From the NCBI GenBank assembly GCA_022565875.1, contig JAIULY010000014.1, forward strand, positions 1-32,519: a stretch of DNA of 32,519 bases, written 5' to 3'. This document shows positions 14,309-29,562 of this stretch, in pieces (within the stretch, counting starts at the first letter, position 1; each line of letters begins with the position of its first letter). Source of the stretch: Schleiferiaceae bacterium. GTDB lineage: Bacteria; Bacteroidota; Bacteroidia; Flavobacteriales; Schleiferiaceae. The notes under the pieces are model-generated. The model worked only from the letters and a program-made list of their open reading frames with translations, had not been told where the DNA came from and did no database searches. Position numbers and translations under genes: made by a program.

Positions 14309-15640
14309 TCACGGGTCAACGGGTGTTTTCGATTGCCGCGCCAAATCCAACAGTGTTTTCCAAACTTTTGTGGGACTAAAGTTGAAAGACGCCCGCAACA
14401 GATAAATTTTTATTGCTGTTGAAATGAATTGTGACAAAAGAAAGCCATAAGCAGCACCGATTAACTGGTATTTTACGATTAAAAAATAAAATAGAGGCAA
14501 GGATAGACCAAAAGTGATAGCCACACTCCAGGTGTTTTTATGTGGGAATCCTGCGCCATCTAAGTAACTGCCAGCTAACTTATCTAAAGGTTTGACCAAT
14601 GCCGAAAAAATGATGATTCGCAAAAAAATAGCTGATTTTGCGTAGGCCTCTCCGGCAAAAAACACCGTCAGCTCTGGCGCAAAGAACCAAATCATGCCGG
14701 CAACGGGAATGGTCAAAGCTAAAATAATAGCTAGGTTGGTGTAGAAAAAAGCCCCTTGCTTTTCTGTGTCATCACGTGAAATACTGCGTGTTACCTTTGA
14801 GTAGTAAACCAGCGCTATACTTTGCAATGGGATTTCAAAAACATTGATAAATCGAAAGGCCACATTGCTAATGGCCACCGAAACTGGCCCGAGAAGTGCG
14901 CTCAGGATAAATTTATCAATGTTTTGCTTTGTTGTAGACAATGTATTTGTTACAAACACATAACGCCCAAATAGATACAGCTTTTTAAACACGTTGACAT
15001 CCCAACCCAAGCGTGGGACGGCTTGTTTTTGAAAAAGTAAAATGGAAACGTACGAGGCGATGATTGCGGCACTTATATAGTAAATGGAAAGTAACGTTAG
15101 ATCCAGTTTTAAGTCGAAGAAAAAGTGCAAAACAACACCAATAGAAAAGAGAATCGGTCGGATGATTTGTGTTTGGAAGTAGTTTTTCATCCGTAATTCC
15201 GCAAGTAAGTACAAACTCACTTGAAAAACAGGAGCGCTAGCCAACAAGATTAAAGCAAGGGCGACGCGAGCAGGTTGTAAGTTTGGTAAGTTTAAGACTG
15301 TAAATAATTGCTGGCCTAAGAATACCATGGCTGCGGCGTATACAACGGCCATTCCCACATTCATGCTAAAGGTATTGCCCAGCAAATCTTTTAATCGATT
15401 GGTAATGGCCACATTGTAATACCTTATAAATGCATTTTGCAACAGGCCTGCCCGAAAGCTTTCTGCAATAGCAGCGATGGAGATAAAAATAGCCCAGGCT
15501 CCAAAGTCTTGCACGGCGAGTAACCGCACAAGTAGTAAGAAGTTGAGAATGCCAAGGGAAAACTCAACCACCCTGGTGAGAAAACTATATCCGTTTTCTT
15601 GTAGCCAATGCTTGTTGCGCAATATCGAAAGGGCTCTCAA
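14309..15640 (-). CDS. Wzx-type polysaccharide flippase (MVF/MATE-like superfamily)
   Basis: A 443-residue membrane protein with about 12 hydrophobic segments and no long soluble domain. The N-terminal part (VVEFSLGILNFLLLVRLLA, then FGAWAIFISIAAIAES) is the standard opening of polysaccharide flippases of the RfbX/PST family, which move lipid-linked repeat units across the inner membrane. It is the last gene of the locus. The start is TTG at 15640: the frame is closed six bases upstream by the TAA of the glycosyltransferase gene, and the next ATG lies about 90 residues inside. The two genes are in the same frame, separated only by TAA-CCA, which points to re-initiation after termination. Confidence 0.87.
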   Translation of the reverse strand: MRALSILRNKHWLQENGYSFLTRVVEFSLGILNFLLLVRLLAVQDFGAWAIFISIAAIAESFRAGLLQNAFIRYYNVAITNRLKDLLGNTFSMNVGMAVVYAAAMVFLGQQLFTVLNLPNLQPARVALALILLASAPVFQVSLYLLAELRMKNYFQTQIIRPILFSIGVVLHFFFDLKLDLTLLSIYYISAAIIASYVSILLFQKQAVPRLGWDVNVFKKLYLFGRYVFVTNTLSTTKQNIDKFILSALLGPVSVAISNVAFRFINVFEIPLQSIALVYYSKVTRSISRDDTEKQGAFFYTNLAIILALTIPVAGMIWFFAPELTVFFAGEAYAKSAIFLRIIIFSALVKPLDKLAGSYLDGAGFPHKNTWSVAITFGLSLPLFYFLIVKYQLIGAAYGFLLSQFISTAIKIYLLRASFNFSPTKVWKTLLDLARQSKTPVDP

Positions 15641-15643
15641 TGG

Positions 15644-16801
15644 TTAACGCAACACTTGGTGAAAAACGGCTTCATACAAAGCATGGACCTCACTAGCGGT
15701 TTGATCCCAATGAAACTTTGAGGCGTGCCTAATACCTTTTTCAATGTGTGCTTCTCGCAATGTAGCATCGGTGAGGAGTTGTGTGATGGCGTTGGCTATG
15801 GTTTCAGGGTCTTCGGGCTGAATGTACACTGCGGCATCACCACCTACCTCGGGCATAGATGAAGTGGCACTGCTAATTACTGCCACCCCACAAGCCATTG
15901 CTTCTAGTGGAGGTATGCCAAAACTCTCCCTGCGAGAAGGGTATACAAATAGTTCTGATAAGTTGTAGAGGTATGGCAATTCTTGATTGGGTAAGTACCC
16001 GGTAAGGTGAATATTTGCCCGCAAGCTTAAATCGCCTATTTTTTTCAACTCCTCCAACAAATGCGTTTCTCCAAAATCTGGCATGACTACAGGCATGGGC
16101 AATGCACCTTGTTGTCGCAACAATGACAGTGCACGAAGCATGTTATCGAGGTTTTTCTTTGGATCGGTATTGCCCAAAAACAACAAAAAGCGCTCAGGTA
16201 ATTTCGCTTTTTCTAGCCAAGCTTTTGGAATGTCTGACTTTGCGATGGGTTGGAAATGGCTGCCCACGGCGTTGTAAATCCGCACGACCTGATCGTTGTT
16301 TTCAGGCAGTTTGAAATGCTGATTGATCCGTTCTTTTTCGTAGTCGGATACTGTGATTACTTTTTTGGCCTTTTTTACAATTCGTGGCACATTCCAAGCC
16401 CGATACAAGTTTCCAAATCGCTGATAGGCCGTTCCTCCTTTTAATGGATTACCCTCTAAATAGATGATGTCATGAAGTGTAACCACCAGTGGAACGGGCG
16501 TAAAAATAGGGGCGGTATTACTGGTGCAATGAAGGATGTCTACGCCGTATTCCTTACAAAGCCGAGGCAGGTACCACTGTTCCCAAATGGGGTAGGGCAT
16601 TGCTTTGGTTTCAACAATTGAAACATTTTTTGCTTGTGGCAATACGTTGTTATCGCTGTCTTTTTTTACAAAAATCACGAAATCGGTATCGGGAAATTGT
16701 TTGACAAGGCTTTTGATGGTTTCTAAGGCAACGATGTCCATCCCGTGTTTTTTCTCGCGAAATAGGCGCTGGGCCTCAATGCCAATTTTCATTCTTTTCA
16801 T
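15644..16801 (-). CDS. Glycosyltransferase family 4
   Basis: A 385-residue GT-B-fold glycosyltransferase. The donor-binding half carries FLGNTDPKKNLDNML (208-222) and the E292-x7-E300 motif in RRESFGIPPLEAMACG, diagnostic of retaining GT4 enzymes of the mannosyl/rhamnosyl type. No membrane segment is seen, so it probably adds one sugar to the undecaprenyl-linked repeat unit on the cytoplasmic face. Its ATG overlaps the TGA of the upstream family-2 gene by four bases, and its own stop lies three bases before the flippase TTG. The sugar transferred cannot be read from the sequence. Confidence 0.92.
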   Translation of the reverse strand: MKRMKIGIEAQRLFREKKHGMDIVALETIKSLVKQFPDTDFVIFVKKDSDNNVLPQAKNVSIVETKAMPYPIWEQWYLPRLCKEYGVDILHCTSNTAPIFTPVPLVVTLHDIIYLEGNPLKGGTAYQRFGNLYRAWNVPRIVKKAKKVITVSDYEKERINQHFKLPENNDQVVRIYNAVGSHFQPIAKSDIPKAWLEKAKLPERFLLFLGNTDPKKNLDNMLRALSLLRQQGALPMPVVMPDFGETHLLEELKKIGDLSLRANIHLTGYLPNQELPYLYNLSELFVYPSRRESFGIPPLEAMACGVAVISSATSSMPEVGGDAAVYIQPEDPETIANAITQLLTDATLREAHIEKGIRHASKFHWDQTASEVHALYEAVFHQVLR

Positions 16802-17982
16802 GGCTGTCCTTTAAGTTGGTCTTTTTCCTTGATTTTATGCGGCGTTGGTTGAAAGTCGTCTTGTGGTTTTTTTATTTTTAAAACATTTAAGGCCATAATC
16901 AAACTCAAGCGAGGCAGTTTGAGAAGGGTAAAGAACAACCTCGGTGTCCAGTATTCCTTGCCAATACTAACTATGAGTGCAAGACTTATAGTAATGAACG
17001 GTAATTGTAAGCCCCAAAACAAAGAGGAGCCTATCCAAAACCAGCTGCTGCAAAAGGCAATAAAGGCGCCAGTTAAAAGCAATAAGCGCGGCAGCATCAA
17101 AAATTGAAGTACTTTGTCGGCGTAATTCCAATTGCCTTTGAAAAACTGAATAATGGCCTCGCCTATGTGTTTTATCCCGTGATGATACTGTGCCGAAAGC
17201 CAGTTCAACCGCTGGGTCTTAAACACGGCAATGTCATCTACTTTTTCATCTAAAACAAATGCTATTTGAGTATACCGAATGGGTACACAATCTTTTAATA
17301 ATGCCAACTCAAGACTCTTGTCAAATCCAATTTTGGATTGAATGGGTAAAACATACTTTTCAAAATGGTCGTTGGTGAAAAACATCCCCGACCCACTCAA
17401 TGCCGGGGCGACTCCCAAAGCCTGATGCCCCTTTCTGAAAATGTGATTATTGATGCTTTCACTGATGCCGTCTAAGTAGGCAAAAGGGAACTCTTGGTTT
17501 TTGGCTTTTCGCTGAATTTGTAATACGGGAAAGCTATGTGTCACCCATCTACTAGCCAATTGAAAAGCGTTTGGTGAAATGTGATTATCGGCATCTAAAA
17601 CCAGGACAATGTCGTAAGACTTTTTAAAATGTTGATGTGCTTCTCGCAGCCCTGCTACCTTTATCAATCGTTCGTTTGGAAACTCAAGTAGGTGAACATT
17701 AGGCGCATTAAGGCCTTTGGGGAAGCTTTCACCGCTCGCTACAACATAAATGTCAATTTGGTTTTGTGGGTAGTTGGCAGCCAAAATCTTGGAAACAGAA
17801 ACTTTTGTAACCGACCCCGCCTTGTAGCTTGGAATGATGACAGCAAAGGTTTTTTCAAAATATGAATCCTCATTCGTTTCCACTGTTATTTCACTCTTTA
17901 GCCTTCCCGCAAGGGCATATACAAGTAAATATAAGGCTTGTGAAAAAAGTAAAAGTGTTGCCCCCCAAATAACCCCTTCCAT
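16798..17982 (-). CDS. Membrane-anchored glycosyltransferase family 2
   Basis: A 394-residue protein with an N-terminal hydrophobic segment (about 5-25), a GT-A catalytic region and a C-terminal membrane region (about 285-365). FAVIIPSYKAG opens the catalytic domain, D130-A-D132 is the metal-binding DxD, and QRLNW at 257-261 stands where processive GT2 enzymes such as cellulose and hyaluronan synthases have Q-x-x-R-W. These features place it near the multi-span GT2 group, but single-transfer enzymes of this layout also exist. Its stop overlaps the next gene's start (ATGA), and its own start overlaps the preceding stop by one base (TAATG). Confidence 0.88.
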   Translation of the reverse strand: MEGVIWGATLLLFSQALYLLVYALAGRLKSEITVETNEDSYFEKTFAVIIPSYKAGSVTKVSVSKILAANYPQNQIDIYVVASGESFPKGLNAPNVHLLEFPNERLIKVAGLREAHQHFKKSYDIVLVLDADNHISPNAFQLASRWVTHSFPVLQIQRKAKNQEFPFAYLDGISESINNHIFRKGHQALGVAPALSGSGMFFTNDHFEKYVLPIQSKIGFDKSLELALLKDCVPIRYTQIAFVLDEKVDDIAVFKTQRLNWLSAQYHHGIKHIGEAIIQFFKGNWNYADKVLQFLMLPRLLLLTGAFIAFCSSWFWIGSSLFWGLQLPFITISLALIVSIGKEYWTPRLFFTLLKLPRLSLIMALNVLKIKKPQDDFQPTPHKIKEKDQLKGQP

Positions 17983-18902
17983 TATTTCTTCCCAGTTAAG
18001 AATTCGTTTTTAAATAAATTTGGATGATAAAAGTGTTGCACATTCCAAAGCACACCTTTCCAATATGCTTTAAAGTGTGGCCATTCGCCTTTGATGGCAA
18101 AAATCAATAAGTTTTTTGGTATGGCTACCAAATGGTAGTACAAAAAGGCAAAAAGCAGCGTTGCCCCTTTTCGATTTCTGCGCAAATAAAGGATTCTGTT
18201 GCGAGAGAGATAATAGGTTTTTAACGTGCTGTTTTTTCCTGTAGTCATCGATTCCTTGTGCCATATTTCAGATTGAGGAACATATAAAATGCGGTATCCT
18301 TTTTCTAAAAACCGATCTGCAAGGTCCATTTCTTCGTAATAGAGAAAAAAGATATCGGCGAGCAAACCAGCCTCTTCAAATGCTTTTCGTTTGATGAGCA
18401 TGGCAGCTCCGTGAGGGCGGGATATTTCGAGTTCTTCCTCGTATTGACCAGTGTCTTCTTCGTGCTCACCGATGCTGTGGCCCCTCCCGGTAATGGGGTG
18501 AATGGGTGTGAATCCTGCAAACTGAAAGGTAGTCGGACTGTCGAAATACTTGATTTTGGGACAAACGATTCCAATGTTTTCCTCTCTTTCCATTCGCGAT
18601 ACTAGAGGCTCTAGAAACCCTTTTGGAACTTCGGTATCGTTGTTTATTAAAAGAAAATAATCTGCGTCTGAAACTTTTATGGCTGCATTATTCCCGCCAC
18701 TGAACCCCAAATTCTTACCTGTTTTTAAAAAGTGGATATCAGGAAAGGCGGCAGGTATTTCGCTAGGGTCTTGAGTGGAGCCATTGTCGACAACGTAAAT
18801 GTCGAAATTTGGATATGAAATTTGCGTAATGGAACGCAGAAAATCTAAAGTATAAGCTACTCCATTATAATTAACCGCAATAATGCTAACCTTTGGCGCC
18901 AT
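17982..18902 (-). CDS. Glycosyltransferase family 2, rhamnosyltransferase-like
   Basis: A 306-residue inverting GT-A enzyme. PKVSIIAVNYNG opens the domain, VVDNGST at 37-43 is the nucleotide-sugar site, LLINNDTEVP near 84-93 has N-N-D in the DxD position, and FFLYYEEMDLADRF carries the ED-type catalytic acid. The pattern is that of WbbL-like rhamnosyltransferases, although the sugar cannot be assigned. The C-terminus is basic and partly hydrophobic. ATG 18902 is chosen over a TTG at 18974, since the family starts at this point and the extension is basic and unlike the family. It begins a string of four overlapping or abutting genes after a 283-base gap. Confidence 0.9.
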   Translation of the reverse strand: MAPKVSIIAVNYNGVAYTLDFLRSITQISYPNFDIYVVDNGSTQDPSEIPAAFPDIHFLKTGKNLGFSGGNNAAIKVSDADYFLLINNDTEVPKGFLEPLVSRMEREENIGIVCPKIKYFDSPTTFQFAGFTPIHPITGRGHSIGEHEEDTGQYEEELEISRPHGAAMLIKRKAFEEAGLLADIFFLYYEEMDLADRFLEKGYRILYVPQSEIWHKESMTTGKNSTLKTYYLSRNRILYLRRNRKGATLLFAFLYYHLVAIPKNLLIFAIKGEWPHFKAYWKGVLWNVQHFYHPNLFKNEFLTGKK

Positions 18903-19185
18903 TTGATTTTGATGTTTGCTGATTCCCGTATGAATTTTTTTGAGCGAAAGTTGCTCCTTTTCCCGTACGCCCAAAGTACACTTTTTTCATAAAACCAATC
19001 AAGCCCTTCAAAAAGAAATGGCCAACTTTGTAGAAGTCCTTCAAAAATGTATCATTCAGAGGGTTGTGCAAAAAATTTAACGTTTAGCATTGTTCAGATT
19101 AATCGTTGCGTGGTTTTTTAGTGTCGATATTTTTCTGCGTCTAGTGAAGAAAAAACACTATATATGGTCAAGTTGTCTGCAAAAA
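18903..19185. other. Gap inside the polysaccharide locus
   Basis: The only large gap in the locus, between the Wzy-like gene and the glycosyltransferases. A TTG-started frame of 61 codons (19071 to 18886) runs across it but overlaps the next gene and is not convincing. A five-base hairpin TAGTG/CACTA with a T-rich loop near 19139-19161 could slow transcription. A near-match to a -7 box (TACTTTGG at 18978-18971, one base short) might be an internal promoter. Confidence 0.35.
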
Positions 19186-20652
19186 TTATTTTTCGGATAG
19201 CGGTTCTAATGCCGCTTTTCCTTCAATATCGGGGTTGCCAGCTAGGTCTTTGTCTAGTTTGTAAGCGAGAATGAGATACGCAAAACTCAAATACAAAATG
19301 ATGCCTGTAGGTAACTGTCCGAAAATGGGGTTGCCGTACGAAGCCACTGCAATGCCTGCAAGTCCTGCGTGTAATGCCATTATCTTTTGCCTCAGCTCGG
19401 GGTCTCGTATTTTGCCGACTTTAAAAAAGCCATAAAAGAGCATGTAAATGATGTGAAACAGATGAATGGATAAACCAACAACACCAGTCTCGGCCCAGAT
19501 TTTCACATACCAACTATCGAGGGCTGTTTGTGCAAGAAAGGTATTTGGACTAAACCGCAGCCCCCAAGACCCACCACTTCCAATGCCTCCGCCAAAAGGA
19601 CGGGTGGCTAGGTACACTTTAAATTTCTTTTGGTTTTCTAAGCGCACTTGTAAACTTGCGTCTTCTGGATTTAAAGCTGTTCGCAACCGACGGATGTTGT
19701 AGTTGTCGTGGCCAATAGAGGTGTATTTTAAAAACGCAAAAAAGCTCAACCCAACGAGCAATCCCAAAGCGAAAATCCAAAAATTTCGAGCCGTCAACAA
19801 GTAAACAATCGCCCCAACTGCAGGAACGGCCAAGGCGCCTCTTGTGCCAGATATAAGCAGGCCGTAAAACGCAATAATTGCCGTTAATGCATAAAAGATA
19901 CGCCGATGAAGGGATTTTACTTTTCCTACAGCAAGAATACCAGCAGTAACGCCTGTATGCCCCATGGCAGCACCAAATTGACCGGCATCTGAGAAAAATG
20001 AAAACACGCGCAGTTTCCCAAATAGAATATGAGTTTTGTAGGCGCCGGTAGCCAAAAAGGCTCGTTCGCCTGCGTCTAAGCCAATGTACAGCTGCTTCAT
20101 GCCCCAAATGACCCCAACAATTGAAAACACAAACCATATTGTGATGAATAGGTCGATGTCTTTGTTTTTGTTGAAATACAACAACGCCAGTAAAGTTGTC
20201 AGCATCATGTAAAGGGCTACCCCACGAACGGCGTAAAACCAGGCTGCAAGGCTGCGTGCCTCTGGGTTGAATAATTGCGCCATGCAATAGAGAAACCAAA
20301 TGATAACCAGAAAAAAGATAGGGTCTTTTAGCACAGAAGCGTTCACTTTTACTTGAGAAAACAACGCTATGATTAATGTAAGAACAAGCACGCCGTCAAT
20401 GCTCAACCCCAGCGGGCCAGGGATGTATCGTGCAAGGCCTATTGCAGTAAATGCCAAAACAAGTGTGGCAATGATGCCAACCCTAGGGTGCTTGTATATC
20501 AGCCAGATAAACAAGATTAAAAATGGCAATCCGCTGATTAATGCAATGGTGACAATACCACCTTTCCAGATCAAAAAGCCAAGAGGAAATCCTAGAAAGG
20601 CAACCAAAAAAAAGCCCAACAGCACAGGATTTATGTCCAGCCAGCGCATCAT
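19186..20652 (-). CDS. Wzy/WaaL-like O-antigen polymerase or ligase family protein
   Basis: A 488-residue membrane protein with about 11-12 hydrophobic segments. The segment YGLLISGTRGALAVPAVGAI is the Wzy_C (O-antigen ligase/polymerase) signature, with the SGTRGA core, and it is followed by a periplasmic loop before the final membrane spans, as in this family. In a locus with a flippase and a Wzz-type co-polymerase it most likely polymerises flipped repeat units at the periplasmic face. It overlaps the Wzz-like gene by four bases (ATGA). Ligase function cannot be excluded from sequence alone. Confidence 0.85.
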   Translation of the reverse strand: MMRWLDINPVLLGFFLVAFLGFPLGFLIWKGGIVTIALISGLPFLILFIWLIYKHPRVGIIATLVLAFTAIGLARYIPGPLGLSIDGVLVLTLIIALFSQVKVNASVLKDPIFFLVIIWFLYCMAQLFNPEARSLAAWFYAVRGVALYMMLTTLLALLYFNKNKDIDLFITIWFVFSIVGVIWGMKQLYIGLDAGERAFLATGAYKTHILFGKLRVFSFFSDAGQFGAAMGHTGVTAGILAVGKVKSLHRRIFYALTAIIAFYGLLISGTRGALAVPAVGAIVYLLTARNFWIFALGLLVGLSFFAFLKYTSIGHDNYNIRRLRTALNPEDASLQVRLENQKKFKVYLATRPFGGGIGSGGSWGLRFSPNTFLAQTALDSWYVKIWAETGVVGLSIHLFHIIYMLFYGFFKVGKIRDPELRQKIMALHAGLAGIAVASYGNPIFGQLPTGIILYLSFAYLILAYKLDKDLAGNPDIEGKAALEPLSEK

Positions 20653-22829
20653 AGGAGCTTGGATAACATTTTCTTAAGCCACTTTTTGACTTTGCCCTCT
20701 CGCTTTCCAATGTCGCCCATGACGTCCTCAAGATCAATGGAGTGCATTTTGTTGAGAACCACCCAAGTGTTGACAGATTTCATGTTGAGCAGTAAATCCA
20801 TTAATTTGCTATCGCTTTTCGTCCAAATACGTGTGCTGTCGATGACATAAACCAACTCAGCCGCTCGCTGCATCAACTTAAAAGGCAAGGATGCCAACTC
20901 GTATGGGGGCAAAACAAGAATAATATAACTAAATGCGTTGGCAGGCTTGTCTCCATGAGTTAATGCAGAAATGTCTTCTAACTCTAAAAAGTCATGTTTG
21001 ATTTCATAGTGTTGACATAGATACTCTAACGAGGCGGCCTCCTCTGAATCCTTGTGACTCACCAACAACACATCGCCATAAAGCTCTTGCATGTATTCTG
21101 CTATTTGTCGAGCAATATGAGTTTTGCCTTCGTTTTCTTTTGAGCTACAAATGGTGATAATGTTACTGTCAGAGTAAGGCTTATTCACATCGCTGAGAAC
21201 CTTTAACTGACTTACCAATTGCCGTGTGCACATCAAATTTACAGCGGGAATTTCTAGTTTTTTCTGTTGTATTTGTTCCTGCTCCCCGTAGTAACCAATG
21301 CATTTCAAGCCACTGTATTTTTCGGCGCGGTCTACTGTGCGCACAGTATTGTCTAATAATAATTTGAGAACAATAAGGGCTAAAATTAACATTACCCCAG
21401 CGAAAAAAGACCCAGCAACCAGAATGAGTCGCTTGCTCCCTTGTGGGTTTCTCGGAAAGTAGGGGTCGTCCACTACCTCCATGTTTTCTGCCATTTCGCT
21501 GCTCTGCTTTTGCAAATTGGCTTGATTAAGGCCGTGTAAAATGGACAAATATTGATTTTCATGAACGGTAACTTCGCGTTCTAGTTTTTTGAGTTCGGCT
21601 CCCAATGGAGCGAAGTAGTCCACCCGACGCTCAATAAACTCTCGTGTTTCTCGTGCCACTGTCAACGTGGAGAGCTGGCGCTCGCGTTCTAAAAATACGT
21701 GCAGCCACTCTTGCAATATTTCACTCAGAGGAATGCCTTCGATGGAAAAATCGTTGCGGTACAACCCGGAAACAAATTGTTTGATTTTTTCATTATTTGA
21801 TTCAAGTTTCAATCGAAGCCGTTCTTCTCGCTCTTGGTCGGCAACACCATAGAGATTTCCAGCCATTATTTGACCTCGAATCTTTACACTCTCCTGACGA
21901 AGTTGATAGAGCGAGTCAACAATTTCAGAACGCGCTGTAGCTTTCGCAATTTCTTCTTCTAATTTTTTTAGTGTTGATTCTGCGCCGGCTATAGTCATGC
22001 GGGTTTGCTGCTCGTCTTTTTCTACATCATTGCGGTAGTTGTCGAGGTTTTTGCCCTGTTCATAGAAGTTGAGAATGCCATTTTGCGATATAAAGGTTTT
22101 GAGTCGGGCCTCGGATTCTTGAAGTTTTTGGTAAGCTTTTTCGAGTTGTTCTTGAAAGTAACGCACTGCGCTTTCATTTTCCCTGCCGCGCATTTTTTGA
22201 TGCCGCTCCATAAAGGTTTCCACCAAAAGAGATAGTGTGTTTTTACAAACACCTGGGTCGGTTGATTCGTAAACCAATTCGAGCATATCACTGGTAAACT
22301 TGCGACTTGCTTTTAGCTTGCCACTTATTTTCATTGGTGCATAAAAGGGGTGTTCGGCCAGCAGGTAGTGTACCACCGAGCTAGGTCTAGAATTGTAGTA
22401 AGCTGTAAGCAACTCATACGTTTTCTTCTCATCACCCCTCACAACCAGTTCTTTGAAAGTCTCGGGGTCAAATTGTTCTACAACCTCTAGTTTATTGCCT
22501 TGCGCGATAATAAGCCCATTTTCTTCCTCTAAGCTGAGGTGTTGAGCGAGTAACTTCAACCCAACAATTTCCAAAGTTTGGCGCGAGCGAACGGTTAAAA
22601 TTAAATTATCGAAGGCATTGTTGGATTTATTGAAGTCGTAGCGCACGCCACCACCGCCAATATCAAAGCTTTTTCCAGAAGCCACTCCAGTGTACACTAC
22701 CGCAGAGGATTCGTAAACCTTGGGGGTTTTACCGGTGAGATAGTATACGAGACCAGCGAGCATAGTAGGAAAGATGACAAATAGCCACCACTTTCCATAC
22801 AATTGCCGCAAAAGGTCCTTTATTTCCAT
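20649..22829 (-). CDS. Wzz-domain co-polymerase with degenerate BY-kinase-like domain
   Basis: A 726-residue protein of the polysaccharide co-polymerase (Wzc/PCP-2a) plan: N-terminal membrane segment (about 15-30), a long periplasmic region with coiled-coil stretches (roughly 215-460), a second membrane segment near 480-500, and a cytoplasmic P-loop domain from about 550. The kinase-like domain is eroded. The P-loop reads SSKENEGKT (563-571 region) with Ser in place of the first Gly; the Walker A' segment VLLVSHKD (587-594) lacks the usual D-x-D; and Walker B reads IILVLPP with Val639 where the Asp should be. The C-terminus is Lys-rich without a tyrosine cluster. It probably controls chain length without kinase activity (inference). 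Confidence 0.87.
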   Translation of the reverse strand: MEIKDLLRQLYGKWWLFVIFPTMLAGLVYYLTGKTPKVYESSAVVYTGVASGKSFDIGGGGVRYDFNKSNNAFDNLILTVRSRQTLEIVGLKLLAQHLSLEEENGLIIAQGNKLEVVEQFDPETFKELVVRGDEKKTYELLTAYYNSRPSSVVHYLLAEHPFYAPMKISGKLKASRKFTSDMLELVYESTDPGVCKNTLSLLVETFMERHQKMRGRENESAVRYFQEQLEKAYQKLQESEARLKTFISQNGILNFYEQGKNLDNYRNDVEKDEQQTRMTIAGAESTLKKLEEEIAKATARSEIVDSLYQLRQESVKIRGQIMAGNLYGVADQEREERLRLKLESNNEKIKQFVSGLYRNDFSIEGIPLSEILQEWLHVFLERERQLSTLTVARETREFIERRVDYFAPLGAELKKLEREVTVHENQYLSILHGLNQANLQKQSSEMAENMEVVDDPYFPRNPQGSKRLILVAGSFFAGVMLILALIVLKLLLDNTVRTVDRAEKYSGLKCIGYYGEQEQIQQKKLEIPAVNLMCTRQLVSQLKVLSDVNKPYSDSNIITICSSKENEGKTHIARQIAEYMQELYGDVLLVSHKDSEEAASLEYLCQHYEIKHDFLELEDISALTHGDKPANAFSYIILVLPPYELASLPFKLMQRAAELVYVIDSTRIWTKSDSKLMDLLLNMKSVNTWVVLNKMHSIDLEDVMGDIGKREGKVKKWLKKMLSKLL

Positions 22830-22851: not shown

Positions 22852-23637
22852 TTATCGTTTCAATAGGTACAAGGGCTGTCCTAATACCACCTCTAATTCA
22901 AAGAATTGCTGGTAAAACTCTGCAGAAGAGTCTTCAAAACGCGACTCAGCCAATGCCCGTATTTCTGAGATTCGCGTATAGTCCATCAATTTGATTTGAT
23001 TTTCACGGTATTGTCGCTCTGCTACACGTTCATTGATTCGGGCTTTTGCCAAAAAGTCTTGGTGCAAATTCATTTGTCGCTGATACTTGATTAGGTTGGT
23101 ATACAAACGTACAATATCTCTATGTAGTAAGATTTCCATTTCTTTGCGCATTTCGTCGTAAGCAAAGGCCTCATGTTTGGCAAGTTTTACCCTGGCCCGA
23201 CGGGTCATTAGTTCTTCTAATGGAAATTGTAGATTCACACCGTACCGATAACCTTGCATCAATTGGGAAACATCTTCACCAGGAATAATGAGCCCTTGAT
23301 TTCCCTCTGAGTAATTGGCGAAAAGAGAAATGTGCTTCCAATAGCGCCGCTTTTCAAGTTTTATTTTTTGAATTTGCGCTTGATAAAACTCAACATTTTT
23401 ATTGACCATCGGGCTGTACTGCCTAGCAATGGCAAAAAGTGTATCTAAGCTTGGAAGCTGTCGCGAAAGATCAACGCTTAAATCAAAAACTTGATGGACA
23501 GCCAACGAATCAATAAATAGAGAATCGGAAGAGTTTCCTGTGGAGGAAAATGAAATGCGAATGACATCTTGCTCCTCTTCTACCTGAGCCAACAACACGT
23601 GCCACGGCAACAAAAAAAGGATCAGGTATTTTTTCAT
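22852..23637 (-). CDS. Half-length TolC/OEP-like outer-membrane protein
   Basis: A 261-residue exported protein. A signal peptide covers residues 1-18 (ending HVLLAQ). The mature part has the OEP pattern of long charged helices with strand pairs between them (a strand-like stretch around LFANYSEGNQ, then helices from about residue 135 to the end), and it ends VVLGQPLYLLKR. Ordinary TolC-family proteins contain two such repeats in 420-480 residues; this one has a single repeat, with no sign of a frameshift and a clean stop. It sits between the initiating sugar transferase and the Wzz-like gene, the place where an OPX/Wza exporter is often found. ATG 23637 is chosen because it begins the signal peptide. 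Confidence 0.72.
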   Translation of the reverse strand: MKKYLILFLLPWHVLLAQVEEEQDVIRISFSSTGNSSDSLFIDSLAVHQVFDLSVDLSRQLPSLDTLFAIARQYSPMVNKNVEFYQAQIQKIKLEKRRYWKHISLFANYSEGNQGLIIPGEDVSQLMQGYRYGVNLQFPLEELMTRRARVKLAKHEAFAYDEMRKEMEILLHRDIVRLYTNLIKYQRQMNLHQDFLAKARINERVAERQYRENQIKLMDYTRISEIRALAESRFEDSSAEFYQQFFELEVVLGQPLYLLKR

Positions 23638-23703: not shown

Positions 23704-23711
23704 CAAAAGTA
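23704..23711 (-). promoter_or_regulatory. Candidate internal -7 box before the TolC-like gene
   Basis: Minus-strand TACTTTTG matches TAnnTTTG and is followed by CGG. It lies in the 108-base gap between the sugar transferase stop and the TolC-like ATG and would give a leader of about 60 bases. No TTG is seen at the preferred -33 distance. It suggests that the export and polymerisation genes may be transcribed apart from the regulators. Confidence 0.4.
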
Positions 23712-23745: not shown

Positions 23746-24933
23746 TTACACATTTTCTTTCTGAAATAATGCCGGTATTGTTTTTAGAATGATTTGAAAA
23801 TCAAACCACAAATTAAAGCGTTCAGCGTAGTCATTGTCGAGTTGCATACGTTCCTCTGGCGACATGTCACCGCCTTTGCCACGCTTGGTTACCTGCCACA
23901 ACCCGGTGATGCCTGCTGGCGCCATAAATCGTTTTGAGATGTCATTGGTGGTCAGCTTCTCTGCTTCGTACAAGGGTAATGGGCGGTTGCCAACAATAGA
24001 CATGTCACCTTTCAATACATTGAATAATTGTGGTAACTCATCAATGCTGGTGTTGCGAAGAAAATTGCCCAACTTGGTTACTCTGGGGTCATTGGTGAAT
24101 TTGTTGAATTTTTCTCCGGCGTCTGCTTGTTTTGCGTGAAAAAGTTTTTCGCAAATAACGCCACTGTCGGTGTATAAAGGGAAGGCACATTGCACCCCCT
24201 CAGAAGCACATTCGGCGCACATTTCGCCTACCTTTACTTCGCGGTCTTCTTCTTTCGCAGCATACTGATTTAAATGTCCCATTTCCTTCAGCTTTTTATC
24301 GGCGTCAGGATCCATAGTGCGAAACTTGTAAAAATCGAATACTTCAAATCCACGACCTACGCGCTTGGAAATGTAAAACACAGGCCCGCGGCTGTCGCGC
24401 TTAATCAAAATGGCTATTATTGCAAAAAAAGGCAACAAAAACAGCAAGGCTAAACCACTAAACACAATGTCAAAGAGACGTTTCCCTACAGGAATAGAAT
24501 AGTCGCGCAGGTTGTTGAATTTTTTGCTTGGATTTGCAAAATCTATCGGCATGGTGTTGAATCGCTCTACCGTTTTCTCTAATAGTGTTGGGGCGATACC
24601 TTTTTCTATTGCTGAATATAAAAGGCTTCCAGTAAATCCATATTCCTCAAAAGACTTTTTCTTTTCAAGGTTAAAGGCTTCACTCAAATAAACGAGTACA
24701 GGAAACTTCCTGAACTTTTTTTGATAGTTCTCTACAAATGCTTTTATTTGTTTGGGTTTGATAAGGTCTTCGGCTATCAAAAAAACAAAACAATCATCTT
24801 TTACGTCAATGTTTTGTAAATAAGAGATGAAGCTGGAATAAGTCCAAACGTCAAAATCATGGGCCAGATGGGCCTTGATTTTTTTACTCCGATTATCATC
24901 GGGGTCAAAAAGGGTGATTTGGTTATTCGCCAT
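23746..24933 (-). CDS. Polyprenyl-phosphate sugar phosphotransferase with receiver-like N-terminus
   Basis: A 395-residue initiating enzyme of the WcaJ/PglC (bacterial sugar transferase) family, which loads the first sugar phosphate onto undecaprenyl phosphate. The membrane helix follows KRLFDIVFSG (about 158-178), KFRTM is at 203-207, the catalytic D298-E299 pair lies in TSIDELPQL, and GDMSIVGNRPLP and GITGLWQV follow. An insert between KFRTM and the DE motif carries C239-x2-C242-x6-C249-x11-C261, a possible metal or disulphide site. Residues 1-125 look like a receiver-fold domain: an acidic turn D10-P-D-D, the strand FVFLIAEDL near 49-57 and FPVLVYLSE near 77-85, but the phospho-acceptor Asp and the conserved Lys appear to be missing. 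Confidence 0.9.
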   Translation of the reverse strand: MANNQITLFDPDDNRSKKIKAHLAHDFDVWTYSSFISYLQNIDVKDDCFVFLIAEDLIKPKQIKAFVENYQKKFRKFPVLVYLSEAFNLEKKKSFEEYGFTGSLLYSAIEKGIAPTLLEKTVERFNTMPIDFANPSKKFNNLRDYSIPVGKRLFDIVFSGLALLFLLPFFAIIAILIKRDSRGPVFYISKRVGRGFEVFDFYKFRTMDPDADKKLKEMGHLNQYAAKEEDREVKVGEMCAECASEGVQCAFPLYTDSGVICEKLFHAKQADAGEKFNKFTNDPRVTKLGNFLRNTSIDELPQLFNVLKGDMSIVGNRPLPLYEAEKLTTNDISKRFMAPAGITGLWQVTKRGKGGDMSPEERMQLDNDYAERFNLWFDFQIILKTIPALFQKENV

Positions 24934-24947
24934 GAATATATGTGTCT

Positions 24948-24971
24948 TTAATTGTAAAAAAGTACAATTAA
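24948..24971 (-). promoter_or_regulatory. AT-rich perfect inverted repeat over the receiver stop codon
   Basis: TTAATTGTA at 24948-24956 and TACAATTAA at 24963-24971 form a perfect nine-base stem with a six-base loop; the receiver gene stop codon lies inside the right arm. On the transcript it would be a weak AU hairpin 14 bases before the sugar transferase ATG. It may set relative expression of the two genes or be a protein-binding palindrome. Confidence 0.4.
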
Positions 24972-25351
24972 TTTCTTTCCATCAACTTGATTAGGCGCAA
25001 TTCCAATTCTTTTGGATTGAAAGGCTTAGTAACGTAATCATCGGCTCCAGCAGACAGCGAGTCAATTTTAGAGTTACTACTTGCTTCTCCTGAGAGCATA
25101 ATGATGGGCACACGCTTCAAGTGGTCTAGTTTACGCACCTCTTTTATGAAACTTATACCATCCATTTCCGGCATAAAATAATCTACAATCATCGCGTCAA
25201 CTGGATTACCCCCCAATAAATAGTCATAGGCGTCTGCACCATTTTCAAGCTTTACAATATTAAACTGCTTACCTAAATTTACTTCGATGATCATCCCTAT
25301 GGATTTCTCGTCATCTACCATTAAAATGGTTTTTCCCGTTGAAGTACTCAT
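24968..25351 (-). CDS. Single-domain (CheY-type) response regulator
   Basis: A 127-residue stand-alone receiver with all key residues: D13-D14 in MVDDE, the phospho-acceptor D57 in MIVDYFMPEMDG, Ser in IIMLSGEA and Lys in YVTKPF. There is no DNA-binding or enzymatic output domain, so it must act by protein contact or as a phosphorelay intermediate. Its start overlaps the hybrid kinase stop by four bases (ATGA), so the two are surely co-translated, and 34 bases later begins the sugar transferase with a receiver-like N-terminus. A role as messenger from the kinase to the polysaccharide machinery is inferred from this order only. Confidence 0.93.
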   Translation of the reverse strand: MSTSTGKTILMVDDEKSIGMIIEVNLGKQFNIVKLENGADAYDYLLGGNPVDAMIVDYFMPEMDGISFIKEVRKLDHLKRVPIIMLSGEASSNSKIDSLSAGADDYVTKPFNPKELELRLIKLMERN

Positions 25352-27174
25352 ACCTTATTAAAAATTTTCCCGCTTTTTATTTGTAAGGATTTAACCCTTT
25401 CTTTAAGCTCTGTTAGGTTCAATTCCCCTTGCTTTACAGAGGCCTCTAAAGTAGCAACATTTTTTCTCATGGTTTCACTTAGATAACCAAATATTCCTTT
25501 CATCTTGTGTAGCTCTTGTTGCACCTGTAGATTTTTGTCTAAAAGCTTGTCGTTAATGGCTTCAAAACAGTCGTTTACTTCGTTTTTTGCTATAGTTAAA
25601 AAGTTGTGCTGCACGTCCTTGTCAGTCCCAATATAACTTTCAACCAGCGATAAATCGAGTGCAACCACCCCTTCCTTTGTTTCTAAAATAGCTACATTTT
25701 GGAGCAATTCCATCACTTTATTGAAGAAATCTTCTTGCTTGAATGGCTTGCTGATAATGTCGTTCATGCCCACATCAAGGGCGTACTGTATGTCGTTTTC
25801 CCAAGTATTCGCAGTTACCCCAAGGATAGGAACGTTTGCATAGTGTTTGTTCGAATTTCGAATGTGTTTTGTGGCAGCTATGCCATCCATTACAGGCATT
25901 TGAAAGTCCATGAAGACCAAGTCAATATCTTTTTCTTCTAATGCTTTTATCGCCTCAAGTCCATTGCTGGCATATTCAACCTGACAACGGGTTTGTTTTA
26001 ATACTTCTTTCAGTAAAACTTGATTGGTAAGATTGTCTTCTACAATTAACACTTTGGTTTCTGCCAAATCGGGAACTACTACGAGACTTTTGCTGTTTGG
26101 CGCTATTTTTTGTGTTGCCTTCTCAAAGGGAATGAGTATTGACAGTTCCGTTCCTTTGTTTAACTCACTTTGCACAGTAACTTTTCCACCATAGGCTTCT
26201 ACAAGTTTTTTCACAATAGCCAGGCCAATACCGGTGCCTTTGGGTTTGTTCATGTTGCCAGCTTTTGCCTGATAGAAGGGCTCAAAAATGTGCTTGATCT
26301 CATCTTCGGCAATGCCCTCACCACTATCGCGAACAACGAATGAAATACCAACCTTCCCCTCTTCGACGGGCTCCTTGCTCAACTGAACTTCTAACTCAAT
26401 TTTACCTTTTCGTGTGTAATTGAAAGAGTTGTTTAATGGATTTGTGAGAATTTGTTTCAATCGCTCAGGGTCTCCGATGACTTGCTCTGGAAGATTGTCT
26501 CTAATTACCAACGCGAACTCTAATTCTTGGGTCTTCTTTGGATAGTAGATTTCTGCAACGTATACTAGCAAATCATGCAGATTGAATTGCTTCTTTAAAA
26601 TGATTTCCTTATTGGCTTCCATTTTGGTGAAATCCAACACGTCATTGATTAATGTCAGCAAACTTTGCGTAGATTCGTTTATCAATTCTAGGTAATATTT
26701 CCCATCAGGCCCCTGTACTTGATTGCTCAATAACTCTAAAAAACCTACAATTGCATTTAACGGGGTGCGAATCTCATGGCTTATATTGGCTAAGAAAATT
26801 TCCTTTATTTTATTCGCTCCCTGTTCACTCAACTTAGCTGGAGCGTCATTTTGGTTTTCTTGTAACTCTTGAAAAAACCCATTTAATTGATAGGGTATCC
26901 CGTTGTCATCATGCGTCCAATAACCCTGAATATTTAGCCGAAGTAATTTATTACTCACATAAACCCCAACCGTTACATCTAACATATGACCTTCTAGTGC
27001 TTTGAAAAACGCCTCTTTAGCAACCTTCCAATCTTTGTGAAGAATTGTTTTTTTTATTTCCTGAAGCTCTAAGTAGGGCTCTGTTATTTCTATAACTTCA
27101 CGCGCCTCCTTAGAAAAGAACACTTTGTTGGTCTGTAAGGTATAAACAAAGGGAGCTAGTTTTGTTTTTTTCAT
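25348..27174 (-). CDS. Hybrid histidine kinase (HisKA-HATPase-REC-Hpt)
   Basis: A 608-residue protein without signal peptide or membrane segment, hence predicted cytoplasmic. Residues 1-110 look like a PAS-type sensory region. HisKA follows with H133 in ANISHEIRTPLNAI; the ATPase domain has NPLNNSFNYT (N box), DSGEGIAEDEI (G1) and GTGIGLAIV (G2). A receiver with phospho-acceptor D423 in VFMDFQMPVMDG and K476 in ISKPF is next, and the C-terminal helices resemble an Hpt domain with H556 in ELHKMKG. This is a complete phosphorelay in one chain, and the next gene is a free receiver that can take the phosphoryl group. It heads the polysaccharide locus; the signal sensed is unknown. Confidence 0.92.
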   Translation of the reverse strand: MKKTKLAPFVYTLQTNKVFFSKEAREVIEITEPYLELQEIKKTILHKDWKVAKEAFFKALEGHMLDVTVGVYVSNKLLRLNIQGYWTHDDNGIPYQLNGFFQELQENQNDAPAKLSEQGANKIKEIFLANISHEIRTPLNAIVGFLELLSNQVQGPDGKYYLELINESTQSLLTLINDVLDFTKMEANKEIILKKQFNLHDLLVYVAEIYYPKKTQELEFALVIRDNLPEQVIGDPERLKQILTNPLNNSFNYTRKGKIELEVQLSKEPVEEGKVGISFVVRDSGEGIAEDEIKHIFEPFYQAKAGNMNKPKGTGIGLAIVKKLVEAYGGKVTVQSELNKGTELSILIPFEKATQKIAPNSKSLVVVPDLAETKVLIVEDNLTNQVLLKEVLKQTRCQVEYASNGLEAIKALEEKDIDLVFMDFQMPVMDGIAATKHIRNSNKHYANVPILGVTANTWENDIQYALDVGMNDIISKPFKQEDFFNKVMELLQNVAILETKEGVVALDLSLVESYIGTDKDVQHNFLTIAKNEVNDCFEAINDKLLDKNLQVQQELHKMKGIFGYLSETMRKNVATLEASVKQGELNLTELKERVKSLQIKSGKIFNKV

Positions 27175-27369: not shown

Positions 27370-29541
27370 CTAGTTGTTGCCTGGGAAAAAGAAGACTTTA
27401 TTCAAGTTTGGATTTTTAGCCCAAGCTTGGTTGTTGTTACCTGCTGACATTACCCAATTTAAAAATTCAGGATAAGCTTCATCGATAGCAATTTTACTTT
27501 TAGGATGCTTCCAAGATACTTCTTGCTCAACAATTTCGATGCCCCAAGGTAAGTTGTTTGCTGTCAAATACCACTTTTTAGTGGCTGGGTCAGTATCGTC
27601 GTCTGCTAAACCGTAAAGCGTATTGTCTACGCGCAAACTAGATTGTCTGCCAGGCAAGTGAACCTCGTGACCGATATTGTTTGTTCTGAAAATGAAGAAG
27701 TCAGATAAAACTACCGCAGGCTGCGTAGCATTGTAATCCAGATTTACTGTAAATGTGATGGTGTCAGGGACTTGAATTGGACCATCGCCTACATTGGTGT
27801 AAAAGGATGACTGCAAGTTTCTAACATTGGGAGCCATTTGGATTAAGTTGTCGTCAACCAATTGGAAAGGTGATGAAACACTAGTAACAATTGGATTGCT
27901 GATCAACTCGTAACCGTTATTACCTGATGTAGGTTGTAACATTTGTAACGCTAAGCCATTACTCAAACCAGCACCTATGGCGTGAATCACAAATTTGTAT
28001 TCGATTTTTGTGATGTTATTGTTGGCGTGACGATAGGTAACAGGACGTTGCTTAATGACTAAGTCGTTGAAGTCGTAGTCACCTTTTGCTGGCCAAAGGT
28101 CTTCAAAGGAATTTACAATCATGTATGGAGCCTCTTCTCTGAAGGCAATGGTGGGGTCGTTATCGTCGTAATCAATGCCTGCAGGGACACCATCGCCATC
28201 GTTATCTACAATACTTGGCGTACCTATTTGAACGGGATTACAAGGGCCAACAGGTACAAAAGCAGTACAGCCGTAGCTGAATCCAGTTGGCAAAGTGTTG
28301 GCGCCATTTCCAGAAGAAGATCCAACGCAAAACTCCATTAAGCCAGAGTTGTTGGCGTCCCAGTTCGGGAAATTAACAAGCATATTATCTACAACCGTAA
28401 CAATTCCCGTTCCGCCAGTAGCAATGAAACGCATGTTGTTGTCTAATGTCATGGTCTGTGCTCTGATAACAGCTGTGCTTCCAGTCATGTTGACTTCGGA
28501 CGAGCTGTTTATATGAAGAAAACCGCCTACGCCAATATAGCCGCTATTGGTCACGTCTGCATTGGTATTGAAGGACAAATTACCCGAAACGTTTATTTGA
28601 CACTCATTTACAAAAGCGCGATTCTGATTTATTTGCATCGTCGCAGCGTTGATGGTCCCAAAGTTATATCCCGTTTCAGATGAGTTGAAATTGAAATTTC
28701 CATTGGTGCTAAACGTACCATAATTAAAGAACTCCGCGCCTGAAGCGGGGTTTCCGTTGGTGTGGTATGGGTTTATTTGAGAAGTCGAGTTGGAGACAAC
28801 CGTACCAAAATTGATAAACTCTCCGCCAAAACCTAAACCATTCTGAAGAACAATCGTCCCCATGTTAATGATGTTGATACGTCTTTCCAAGTTATTTGCC
28901 GTGATGGTCAAAGTGGCACCTTCTGCTACGCGAATGGTTCTTGATCCAGCCGACCAAACACTCACACCTGTTAATGTGGAGTTTTCACAAACATCTAAAA
29001 TTTCTGTTCCATTTGGCCATGAAATGCTACCGTTGAAGGACTTTGCCACAGTGTGCGCACCTGATAAAGTTAAGTTGCTCGGTAAGTTTTGCGCTGCACC
29101 ACAATCAATAGTGGGTGGCGTAGCTGAGCCAATCATGCTCGACTTATTTTTGCCGTTGTCTAGGTCAATAGTTAAATTTATAGTGGAACGTCCTTCACGT
29201 TTGAAAGATTGAATAACATTGGCCTCAGGAATGTAAATAAAGTACTCATCCTGTAAAGCAGGTTCTCGCATCAGGATTTGACCGCCTGTGCCATTTACAG
29301 TGATACTGCGCAATGTGTTGTATTTGTTGTCCAAAATTTTAACAACACTAACATTTGTGTTTTGTGAAACCAAGTTAAATGCCACCGTAAATTGATTTGT
29401 AGCCTCATAGATAAAACCTGTTGGCGCTTTGCTCTCCGCCAAGCTCATTCTTCCTGGGCGAGAGTTGTCGTCGTCGCGATTACAAGACGCTAAAACTAAA
29501 AGTGTAGTAGCAACGGCCAAAATTTTAAAAGGTATTTTCAT
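27370..29541 (-). CDS. LruC-domain surface lipoprotein with beta-solenoid-like region
   Basis: A 723-residue lipoprotein. The signal peptide ends in the lipobox L17-A-S-C20, followed by NRDDDN, an acidic stretch like the lipoprotein export signals that send Bacteroidota lipoproteins to the cell surface. Residues about 150-430 are rich in Asn/Gly/Thr with recurring NxGT-like strands (INMGTIVLQNG, INFGTVVSN, FNYGTFSTNG, YNFGTINAA), which suggests a beta-solenoid. DNDGDGVPAGIDYDDNDP near 450 is a TSP3-like calcium-binding loop. The C-terminal third is an LruC domain with DLWPAKGDYDFNDLVI. Function of LruC proteins is not established. ATG 29541 is chosen over ATG 29553 because the promoter box would leave only two or three leader bases before the latter. 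Confidence 0.88.
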   Translation of the reverse strand: MKIPFKILAVATTLLVLASCNRDDDNSRPGRMSLAESKAPTGFIYEATNQFTVAFNLVSQNTNVSVVKILDNKYNTLRSITVNGTGGQILMREPALQDEYFIYIPEANVIQSFKREGRSTINLTIDLDNGKNKSSMIGSATPPTIDCGAAQNLPSNLTLSGAHTVAKSFNGSISWPNGTEILDVCENSTLTGVSVWSAGSRTIRVAEGATLTITANNLERRINIINMGTIVLQNGLGFGGEFINFGTVVSNSTSQINPYHTNGNPASGAEFFNYGTFSTNGNFNFNSSETGYNFGTINAATMQINQNRAFVNECQINVSGNLSFNTNADVTNSGYIGVGGFLHINSSSEVNMTGSTAVIRAQTMTLDNNMRFIATGGTGIVTVVDNMLVNFPNWDANNSGLMEFCVGSSSGNGANTLPTGFSYGCTAFVPVGPCNPVQIGTPSIVDNDGDGVPAGIDYDDNDPTIAFREEAPYMIVNSFEDLWPAKGDYDFNDLVIKQRPVTYRHANNNITKIEYKFVIHAIGAGLSNGLALQMLQPTSGNNGYELISNPIVTSVSSPFQLVDDNLIQMAPNVRNLQSSFYTNVGDGPIQVPDTITFTVNLDYNATQPAVVLSDFFIFRTNNIGHEVHLPGRQSSLRVDNTLYGLADDDTDPATKKWYLTANNLPWGIEIVEQEVSWKHPKSKIAIDEAYPEFLNWVMSAGNNNQAWAKNPNLNKVFFFPGNN

Positions 29542-29562
29542 AATGAATTTCATTTATTACTG

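Follow-up and report, generated by a model that had tools for sequence, protein, structure and literature searches.

In the Wzc model, capsules and exopolysaccharides are assembled with cycles of tyrosine phosphorylation as the motor. Pseudokinases derived from bacterial tyrosine kinases (BY-kinases) are described alongside polysaccharide co-polymerases of class 2 (PCP-2) in Myxococcus xanthus (EcpK with EpsV) and Caulobacter (HfsB with HfsA), and a passage on EcpK proposes that it is a scaffold operating free of phosphorylation, with a basic C-terminal helix (PMC12004946). The same passage names, after Cuthbertson et al., variants in which PCP-2 and BY-pseudokinase are fused: SMc01795, BCETI_6000729, Mlr8439 and VV1_2305 (PMC12004946). 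Also in Myxococcus, an excerpt on the initiating transferase EpsZ reports that the phosphorylated single-domain response regulator EpsW is close to this enzyme and stimulates it, and that receiver domains also occur fused to small transferases (PMC12802240).

Here we compare with these systems a gene on the minus strand of contig JAIULY010000014.1 of a Schleiferiaceae bacterium (assembly GCA_022565875.1). The window, that is, the whole stretch of DNA analyzed, comprises 32,519 nucleotides. The gene (20649..22829) encodes a Wzc-like PCP-2 co-polymerase of 726 amino acids (aa) with a fused BY-pseudokinase domain, as read from its open reading frame (ORF), an AlphaFold2 (AF2) model and fold matches. 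Our preferred explanation, held with moderate confidence, joins three elements: a pseudokinase scaffold of the Wzx/Wzy pathway, an initiating transferase gated by a phosphorelay, and an outer-membrane exit related to outer-membrane efflux proteins (OEP). The co-polymerase would belong to a Wzx/Wzy exopolysaccharide pathway and form an octamer-type scaffold that works without tyrosine phosphorylation.

Fold and catalytic motifs of the co-polymerase

The gene is a single intact frame with an ATG start and no internal stops, and it is present once in the window's genome. Pfam GNVR and Wzz match the product below cut-off and in its periplasmic part only, the NCBIfam XrtA chain-length determinant matches at 69 bits (also below cut-off), and the NCBIfam Wzc family gives just 22.8 bits against a cut-off of 1068. 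A search against PDB sequences reaches only the periplasmic and membrane part of Wzc, and no kinase-domain match to the product was returned by the Pfam, NCBIfam or PDB sequence searches. An AF2 model built with 63 family sequences (mean pLDDT 84.5, pTM 0.55) matches full-length Wzc (Foldseek E 3e-18) and Wzc chain 9exq_B (Z 19.7, rmsd 8.2 over 412 residues). For its C-terminal domain, the matches are CapAB (2ved_B; Z 18.9, with an rmsd of 3.4 Å across 205 residues) and, from Wzc, the kinase domain (3la6_F; Z 18.4). These fold matches indicate that the kinase fold is present and that its sequence has drifted past recognition by profiles. The build is that of Wzc, with two membrane helices, a Wzz/GNVR periplasmic part and a cytoplasmic BY-kinase fold. 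Two relatives (L038 and L039) have longer co-polymerases of 1010 to 1011 aa, in which a C-terminal extension adds a further membrane helix and a putative SPOR-type domain.

We aligned 81 family proteins, 79 of which reach the kinase domain, with 22 canonical kinases (21 from Bacteroidota, many of the same bacterial family, plus Escherichia coli Wzc); L090 and L092, at contig ends, were excluded from the motif counts. An earlier note on this window, made from the sequence alone, had described a Wzc-like protein with eroded kinase motifs, and the alignment allows its reading to be refined. The P-loop (residues 562-570, SSKENEGKT; 21120..21146) is kept, with the Walker A lysine and GKT in place (S562-S-K-E-N-E-G568-K569-T570), and the claimed BY-kinase layout agrees with the CapAB and Wzc fold matches. 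The replacement of the first P-loop Gly had been counted as erosion; the residue is indeed S562, but Ser stands in this column in 21 of the 22 canonical kinases and so does not point to erosion. The Asp pair of Walker A' had been called absent. This is correct for the second Asp, which is D in 22/22 canonical kinases and K593 here (residues 591-593, SHK; 21051..21059); the first is Gly in 21/22 canonical kinases, and its absence therefore says little. The claim that the Walker B Asp is Val stands, since V639 (20913..20915) occupies a column that is D in all 22. Displacement of the Asp by a few residues was rejected as well, because D594 lies one residue off (S591-H-K593-D594) but its column is D in only 11/79 family rows, providing no conserved substitute, and Asp is missing from the Walker B column too.

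The tyrosine cluster is likewise missing, as had been proposed. No Tyr occurs in the last 40 residues of the window protein, compared with 0 to 3 in the 79 family rows and 6 to 14 in the 22 canonical rows, and the place of the canonical tyrosine tail is taken by a basic helix (residues 713-725; 20655..20693) according to the AF2 model and the sequence. In the BY-kinase fold, the Walker A' and B Asp residues are required for Mg2+ and hydrolysis. Loss of these residues from a retained fold suggests that the domain is probably inactive and serves as a scaffold, a role that we infer from sequence and modeled structure.

Conservation across the family argues that this is a changed family and not local decay. 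The combination of K569, D593 and D639 occurs in 0/79 family rows compared with 22/22 canonical kinases; D is found in the proper Walker A' column in 7/79 rows, and in the Walker B column 61 rows hold E, 7 hold V and 2 hold D. Meanwhile, G568 (79/79) and K569 (76/79) are retained, position 570 is T or S in 64/81 rows (some members have Q, L, H or A), and a family-specific motif, R667-x-W669-x3-D673 (20811..20831), is nearly fixed (74/79, 78/79 and 78/79, respectively) at positions that vary among the canonical kinases. "Eroded" is thus not quite the right word for a domain that has gained a conserved motif of its own. In a FastTree phylogeny rooted on E. coli Wzc the family stands apart from canonical kinases on a long branch with a support of 0.83, although the phylogeny is weak. 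As a pseudokinase family it is real and well supported, and it spans the Bacteroidota, with cultured carriers such as Schleiferia thermophila, Polaribacter glomeratus and Hymenobacter glacieicola.

Deeper members come from a phylum sample of 395 genomes, with 31 carriers at E <= 1e-60 and 20 loci read. All 20 have at most four Tyr in the last 40 residues. In L189 and L191, GKT is retained together with a Walker B Asp (IDST) and a single A' Asp (VDAN), and L195 and L196 keep IDGN. These few sequences suggest that the tyrosine tail was lost first and the Walker Asp residues later, an order that fits the scores of the L194, L195 and L196 domains, which are slightly better with the canonical profile than with that of the family. 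With a partial Walker Asp set and no tyrosine tail, L189, L191 and L194 to L196 are possible intermediates in kinase loss.

Neighboring transferase, putative phosphorelay and proposed outer-membrane channel

On the minus strand, the co-polymerase gene lies in a row that reads hybrid histidine kinase, response regulator, transferase, OEP protein, co-polymerase and Wzy, with successive overlaps (negative) or gaps of -4, 34, 108, 22 and -4 bases. We searched for this arrangement in related loci (113 relatives found, 80 kept; L106, where an overlapping frame had been picked, was excluded from synteny counts, leaving 79). Because the profiles for receiver, OEP and transferase were themselves derived from these loci, with the window proteins as seeds, they should recover them at a high rate, and 20 canonical kinase loci (about 13 to 19 kb) serve as the control. 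The nearest upstream ORF on the same strand is the OEP gene in 79/79 loci; where more than 4.5 kb of upstream sequence was available (n = 69), the transferase was found in 64 and the regulator in 63, and a histidine phosphotransfer (Hpt) protein lies within 7.5 kb in 34/79. The control loci yielded one regulator, no Hpt and one OEP gene, which was not adjacent. Among the 20 deeper loci, the OEP gene is directly upstream in 18, with a regulator upstream on the same strand in 14. Kinase-domain profiles detected 78 pseudokinase domains and no canonical one across the 80 loci, which argues against a second, stand-alone kinase partner at the locus.

The regulator (24968..25351) is a single receiver domain in which D13-D14, D57, S87 and K109 are intact by domain and residue reading. 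The acidic pair and the other three residues are complete in 64/64 sequences, four long or cut sequences having been set aside, and the conserved form consists of a receiver alone, about 125 aa long and with no DNA-binding domain, whose place is kept across the phylum. Its gene overlaps by 4 bases that of the hybrid histidine kinase (25348..27174), which comprises HisKA (H133), HATPase, a receiver (D423) and an Hpt-like C-terminus (H556). Given these intact relay residues and the gene overlap, phosphate could flow from the upstream kinase along a His-Asp-His path to the regulator. In some Flavobacteriaceae loci (L042, L054, L058, L067, L081 and L085), a second Hpt protein of 105 aa is encoded farther upstream, near GAF-type histidine kinases.

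The adjoining gene (23746..24933) encodes a phosphoglycosyl transferase of 395 aa (Pfam Bac_transf, 204 bits) with a receiver-like N-terminal domain. The family profile of this domain aligns with response regulators (hhalign 99.8%, E 4.5e-30); its lysine is mostly lost and its acceptor Asp often lost. The phosphorylated regulator may bind this transferase, probably through the receiver-like domain, and by binding could decide when repeat units are started, by analogy with EpsW and EpsZ. The earlier note had suggested that a linked histidine phosphorelay might replace the tyrosine cycle. The linkage is strong (regulator in 63/69 loci compared with 1/20 canonical loci), but the EpsW precedent and the receiver-like domain on the neighboring transferase point to that enzyme as the target, and it is more likely that the relay gates initiation than that it replaces the tyrosine cycle within the co-polymerase. 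In its catalytic part (about residues 235-265), the transferase also carries a Cys-rich insertion (C-x2-C ... C ... C), common to many relatives as CPRC...C...C and gone in most Schleiferiaceae relatives, which is possibly a metal site.

Directly upstream of the co-polymerase, 22852..23637 encodes a half-size TolC/OprM-like protein (Pfam OEP, 46.7 bits against a cut-off of 22). With the ATG at 23637 preferred to the TTG at 23706 it is 261 aa long, and it holds a single OEP repeat instead of two in tandem, as do its relatives at about 250 aa. The AF2 model (pLDDT 86.9) matches OprM by Foldseek (E 1.3e-6 over 206 columns), and both OprM and TolC are matched over about 206 columns, half their length. 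A hexamer of such chains could form a TolC-like tube. A profile of outer-membrane polysaccharide export (OPX) proteins from the 20 canonical loci found none among 1355 ORFs in the 80 loci; OPX adjacency in 20/20 of the canonical loci reflects selection, as these were picked for an OPX gene near the kinase. PF02563 was also absent from the window's genome, a 93% complete assembly, with the control positive in 5/14 genomes. OPX proteins of Bacteroidetes are treated in PMC9601211, a passage of which does not mention TolC. The invariable gene adjacency and the absence of OPX suggest that the polymer would leave through an outer-membrane channel of the half-size protein, docked on the co-polymerase in place of a Wza-type OPX protein.

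Other genes of the window lie on either side of this row. Downstream of the co-polymerase and overlapping it by 4 bases is a Wzy-like polymerase or ligase (19186..20652; Pfam Wzy_C, 38.4 bits against a cut-off of 31.7), followed on the same strand by three glycosyltransferases (15644..18974, at 15644-16801, 16798-17982 and 17982-18974; NCBIfam matches all below curated cut-offs) and a Wzx-like flippase (14309..15640; Pfam Polysacc_synt_3). Upstream of the histidine kinase, a DUF4842 protein is encoded (27370-29553, minus strand); phmmer matches to it also lie close to around a dozen related loci.

Alternative explanations and their weight

Elsewhere in the window's genome, no BY-kinase scored over the cut-off; three weak hits are, by their motifs, presumably ParA, Mrp and ParA-like ATPases. 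One low-molecular-weight phosphatase is encoded on another contig. Together with the motifs, their family-wide loss, the fold and the lack of another canonical kinase domain at the locus, this supports the proposal of a pseudokinase co-polymerase. In a sample of the order (148 genomes, 16 carriers), a canonical kinase and an OPX protein are encoded elsewhere in the genomes of the other 15. In most carriers the module thus exists in parallel with a canonical system, and loss of the kinase from all carrier genomes is ruled out.

Several points weigh against our explanation. The P-loop lysine persists in 76/79 rows, which makes it likely that nucleotide binding is still used. The Hpt-like domain of the window falls below the Pfam cut-off (16.7 against 24.6 bits), and the receiver-like domain of its transferase is the second weakest of the set (E 0.0075). 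EpsZ is a transferase of a different build, so that the comparison with EpsW and EpsZ is one of analogy only, and adjacency of the OEP gene is by itself no proof of a role in export. Finally, the kinase and OPX retained by the 15 other carriers limit genome-level loss to the window's own genome, where it was read from an assembly that is 93% complete and in 312 contigs.

The first of these points leads to a reading that is compatible with ours and that we regard as a plausible, if less than probable, addition: the pseudokinase binds ATP or ADP, and nucleotide exchange, not phosphotransfer, switches it between assembled and open states. The invariant G568, the near-invariant K569, the prevalent T or S at position 570 and the P-loop topology retained in the AF2 model are in keeping with this, but the Walker A' and B Asp residues are gone and some members have Q, L, H or A at position 570. 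We consider it unlikely that the co-polymerase itself is the target of the relay, with the phosphorylated regulator binding the pseudokinase domain and driving an assembly cycle in place of tyrosine phosphorylation. Regulator and co-polymerase share a conserved, operon-like row, and the R-x-W-x3-D motif is newly conserved, lies at the surface and has no catalytic role; the regulator's neighbor, however, is the transferase, which carries the receiver-like domain, and the single worked case targets the transferase (PMC12802240).

Rather less likely still is a role of regulator and kinase in transcriptional control or some remote process alone, in which case their position in the row would be a regulatory convenience. 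Regulatory genes often adjoin their targets, and three relatives have larger response regulators (435 to 450 aa) in the row, but a bare receiver that lacks a DNA-binding domain and holds its position phylum-wide is a poor candidate for this. Phosphorylation or assistance of the domain in trans, by an active tyrosine kinase encoded at another site in the genome, is very improbable: canonical kinases do coexist with the family in 15/16 carriers of the order sample, yet the window's genome has none over the cut-off, and the domain offers no tyrosine tail as substrate. As for a decaying, functionless remnant, the divergence of the protein (25 to 31% identity to relatives) could be read in this way, but the 726-codon frame is intact, overlaps one neighbor by 4 bases and lies 22 bases from the other, and it keeps the family-wide invariant residues; this leaves such a remnant scarcely credible, and conservation refutes it.

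Comparison with known systems

BY-pseudokinases, their fused variants and control of a transferase by a response regulator are each already known separately. The combined module, its spread through the Bacteroidota and the substitution of a half-size TolC-like protein for OPX were not found in the open literature searched. Tentatively, the family may represent a phylum-wide Bacteroidota line that dispenses with both tyrosine phosphorylation and OPX, in which an Hpt/regulator relay gates the initiating transferase by way of the receiver-like domain fused to it, and the pseudokinase co-polymerase carries a directly docked half-size TolC-like channel as a fourth outer-membrane route. The family matters because it is large and natural: the active site of the motor has gone from it, the remainder is under strong constraint and a ready-made alternative switch adjoins it. 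With it, BY-pseudokinases and the control of sugar-transferase initiation by response regulators would extend beyond the myxobacteria, across a whole phylum. A testable prediction follows, namely an outer-membrane exit that works without an OPX protein, and the cultured carriers make tests feasible.

In overall build, fold and role in the Wzx/Wzy pathway, the co-polymerase resembles that of the E. coli Wzc/Wza/Wzb system, but Wzc is an active kinase with a tyrosine tail and an OPX partner, and the phosphatase is absent from the Schleiferiaceae locus. The half-size protein shares the helix, β-hairpin and long-helix fold of TolC and OprM, with one repeat where these have two, and the efflux-pump partner is absent from the row. 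Like EcpK and HfsB, the kinase domain described here lacks the Walker A' and B Asp residues and the tyrosine tail, and like EcpK it ends in a basic helix. It differs in that co-polymerase and pseudokinase are two proteins in those systems and one polypeptide here, and, compared with EcpK, in keeping the P-loop GKT; the Myxococcus pathway also has an OPX protein, whereas the Schleiferiaceae locus has none. SMc01795 and the other fused variants are likewise single polypeptides lacking the catalytic residues, although these are proteobacterial and are likened here by protein only.

The likeness to EpsW and EpsZ lies in a bare receiver within a polysaccharide locus, a transferase adjoining it and a BY-pseudokinase in the same pathway. 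EpsZ is a large monotopic phosphoglycosyl transferase lacking the β-hairpin, whereas the Schleiferiaceae transferase, which matches the EpsZ family at 145 bits against a cut-off of 800, has no EpsZ-type N-terminal half and carries the receiver-like domain instead; the relay starts from a chemosensory kinase in Myxococcus and runs through Hpt proteins in the Bacteroidota row. Nevertheless, the three ingredients known from the Myxococcus pathway stand side by side in this row, and we take this to mean that the co-polymerase is probably a scaffold working without phosphorylation and that the relay probably gates the first step.

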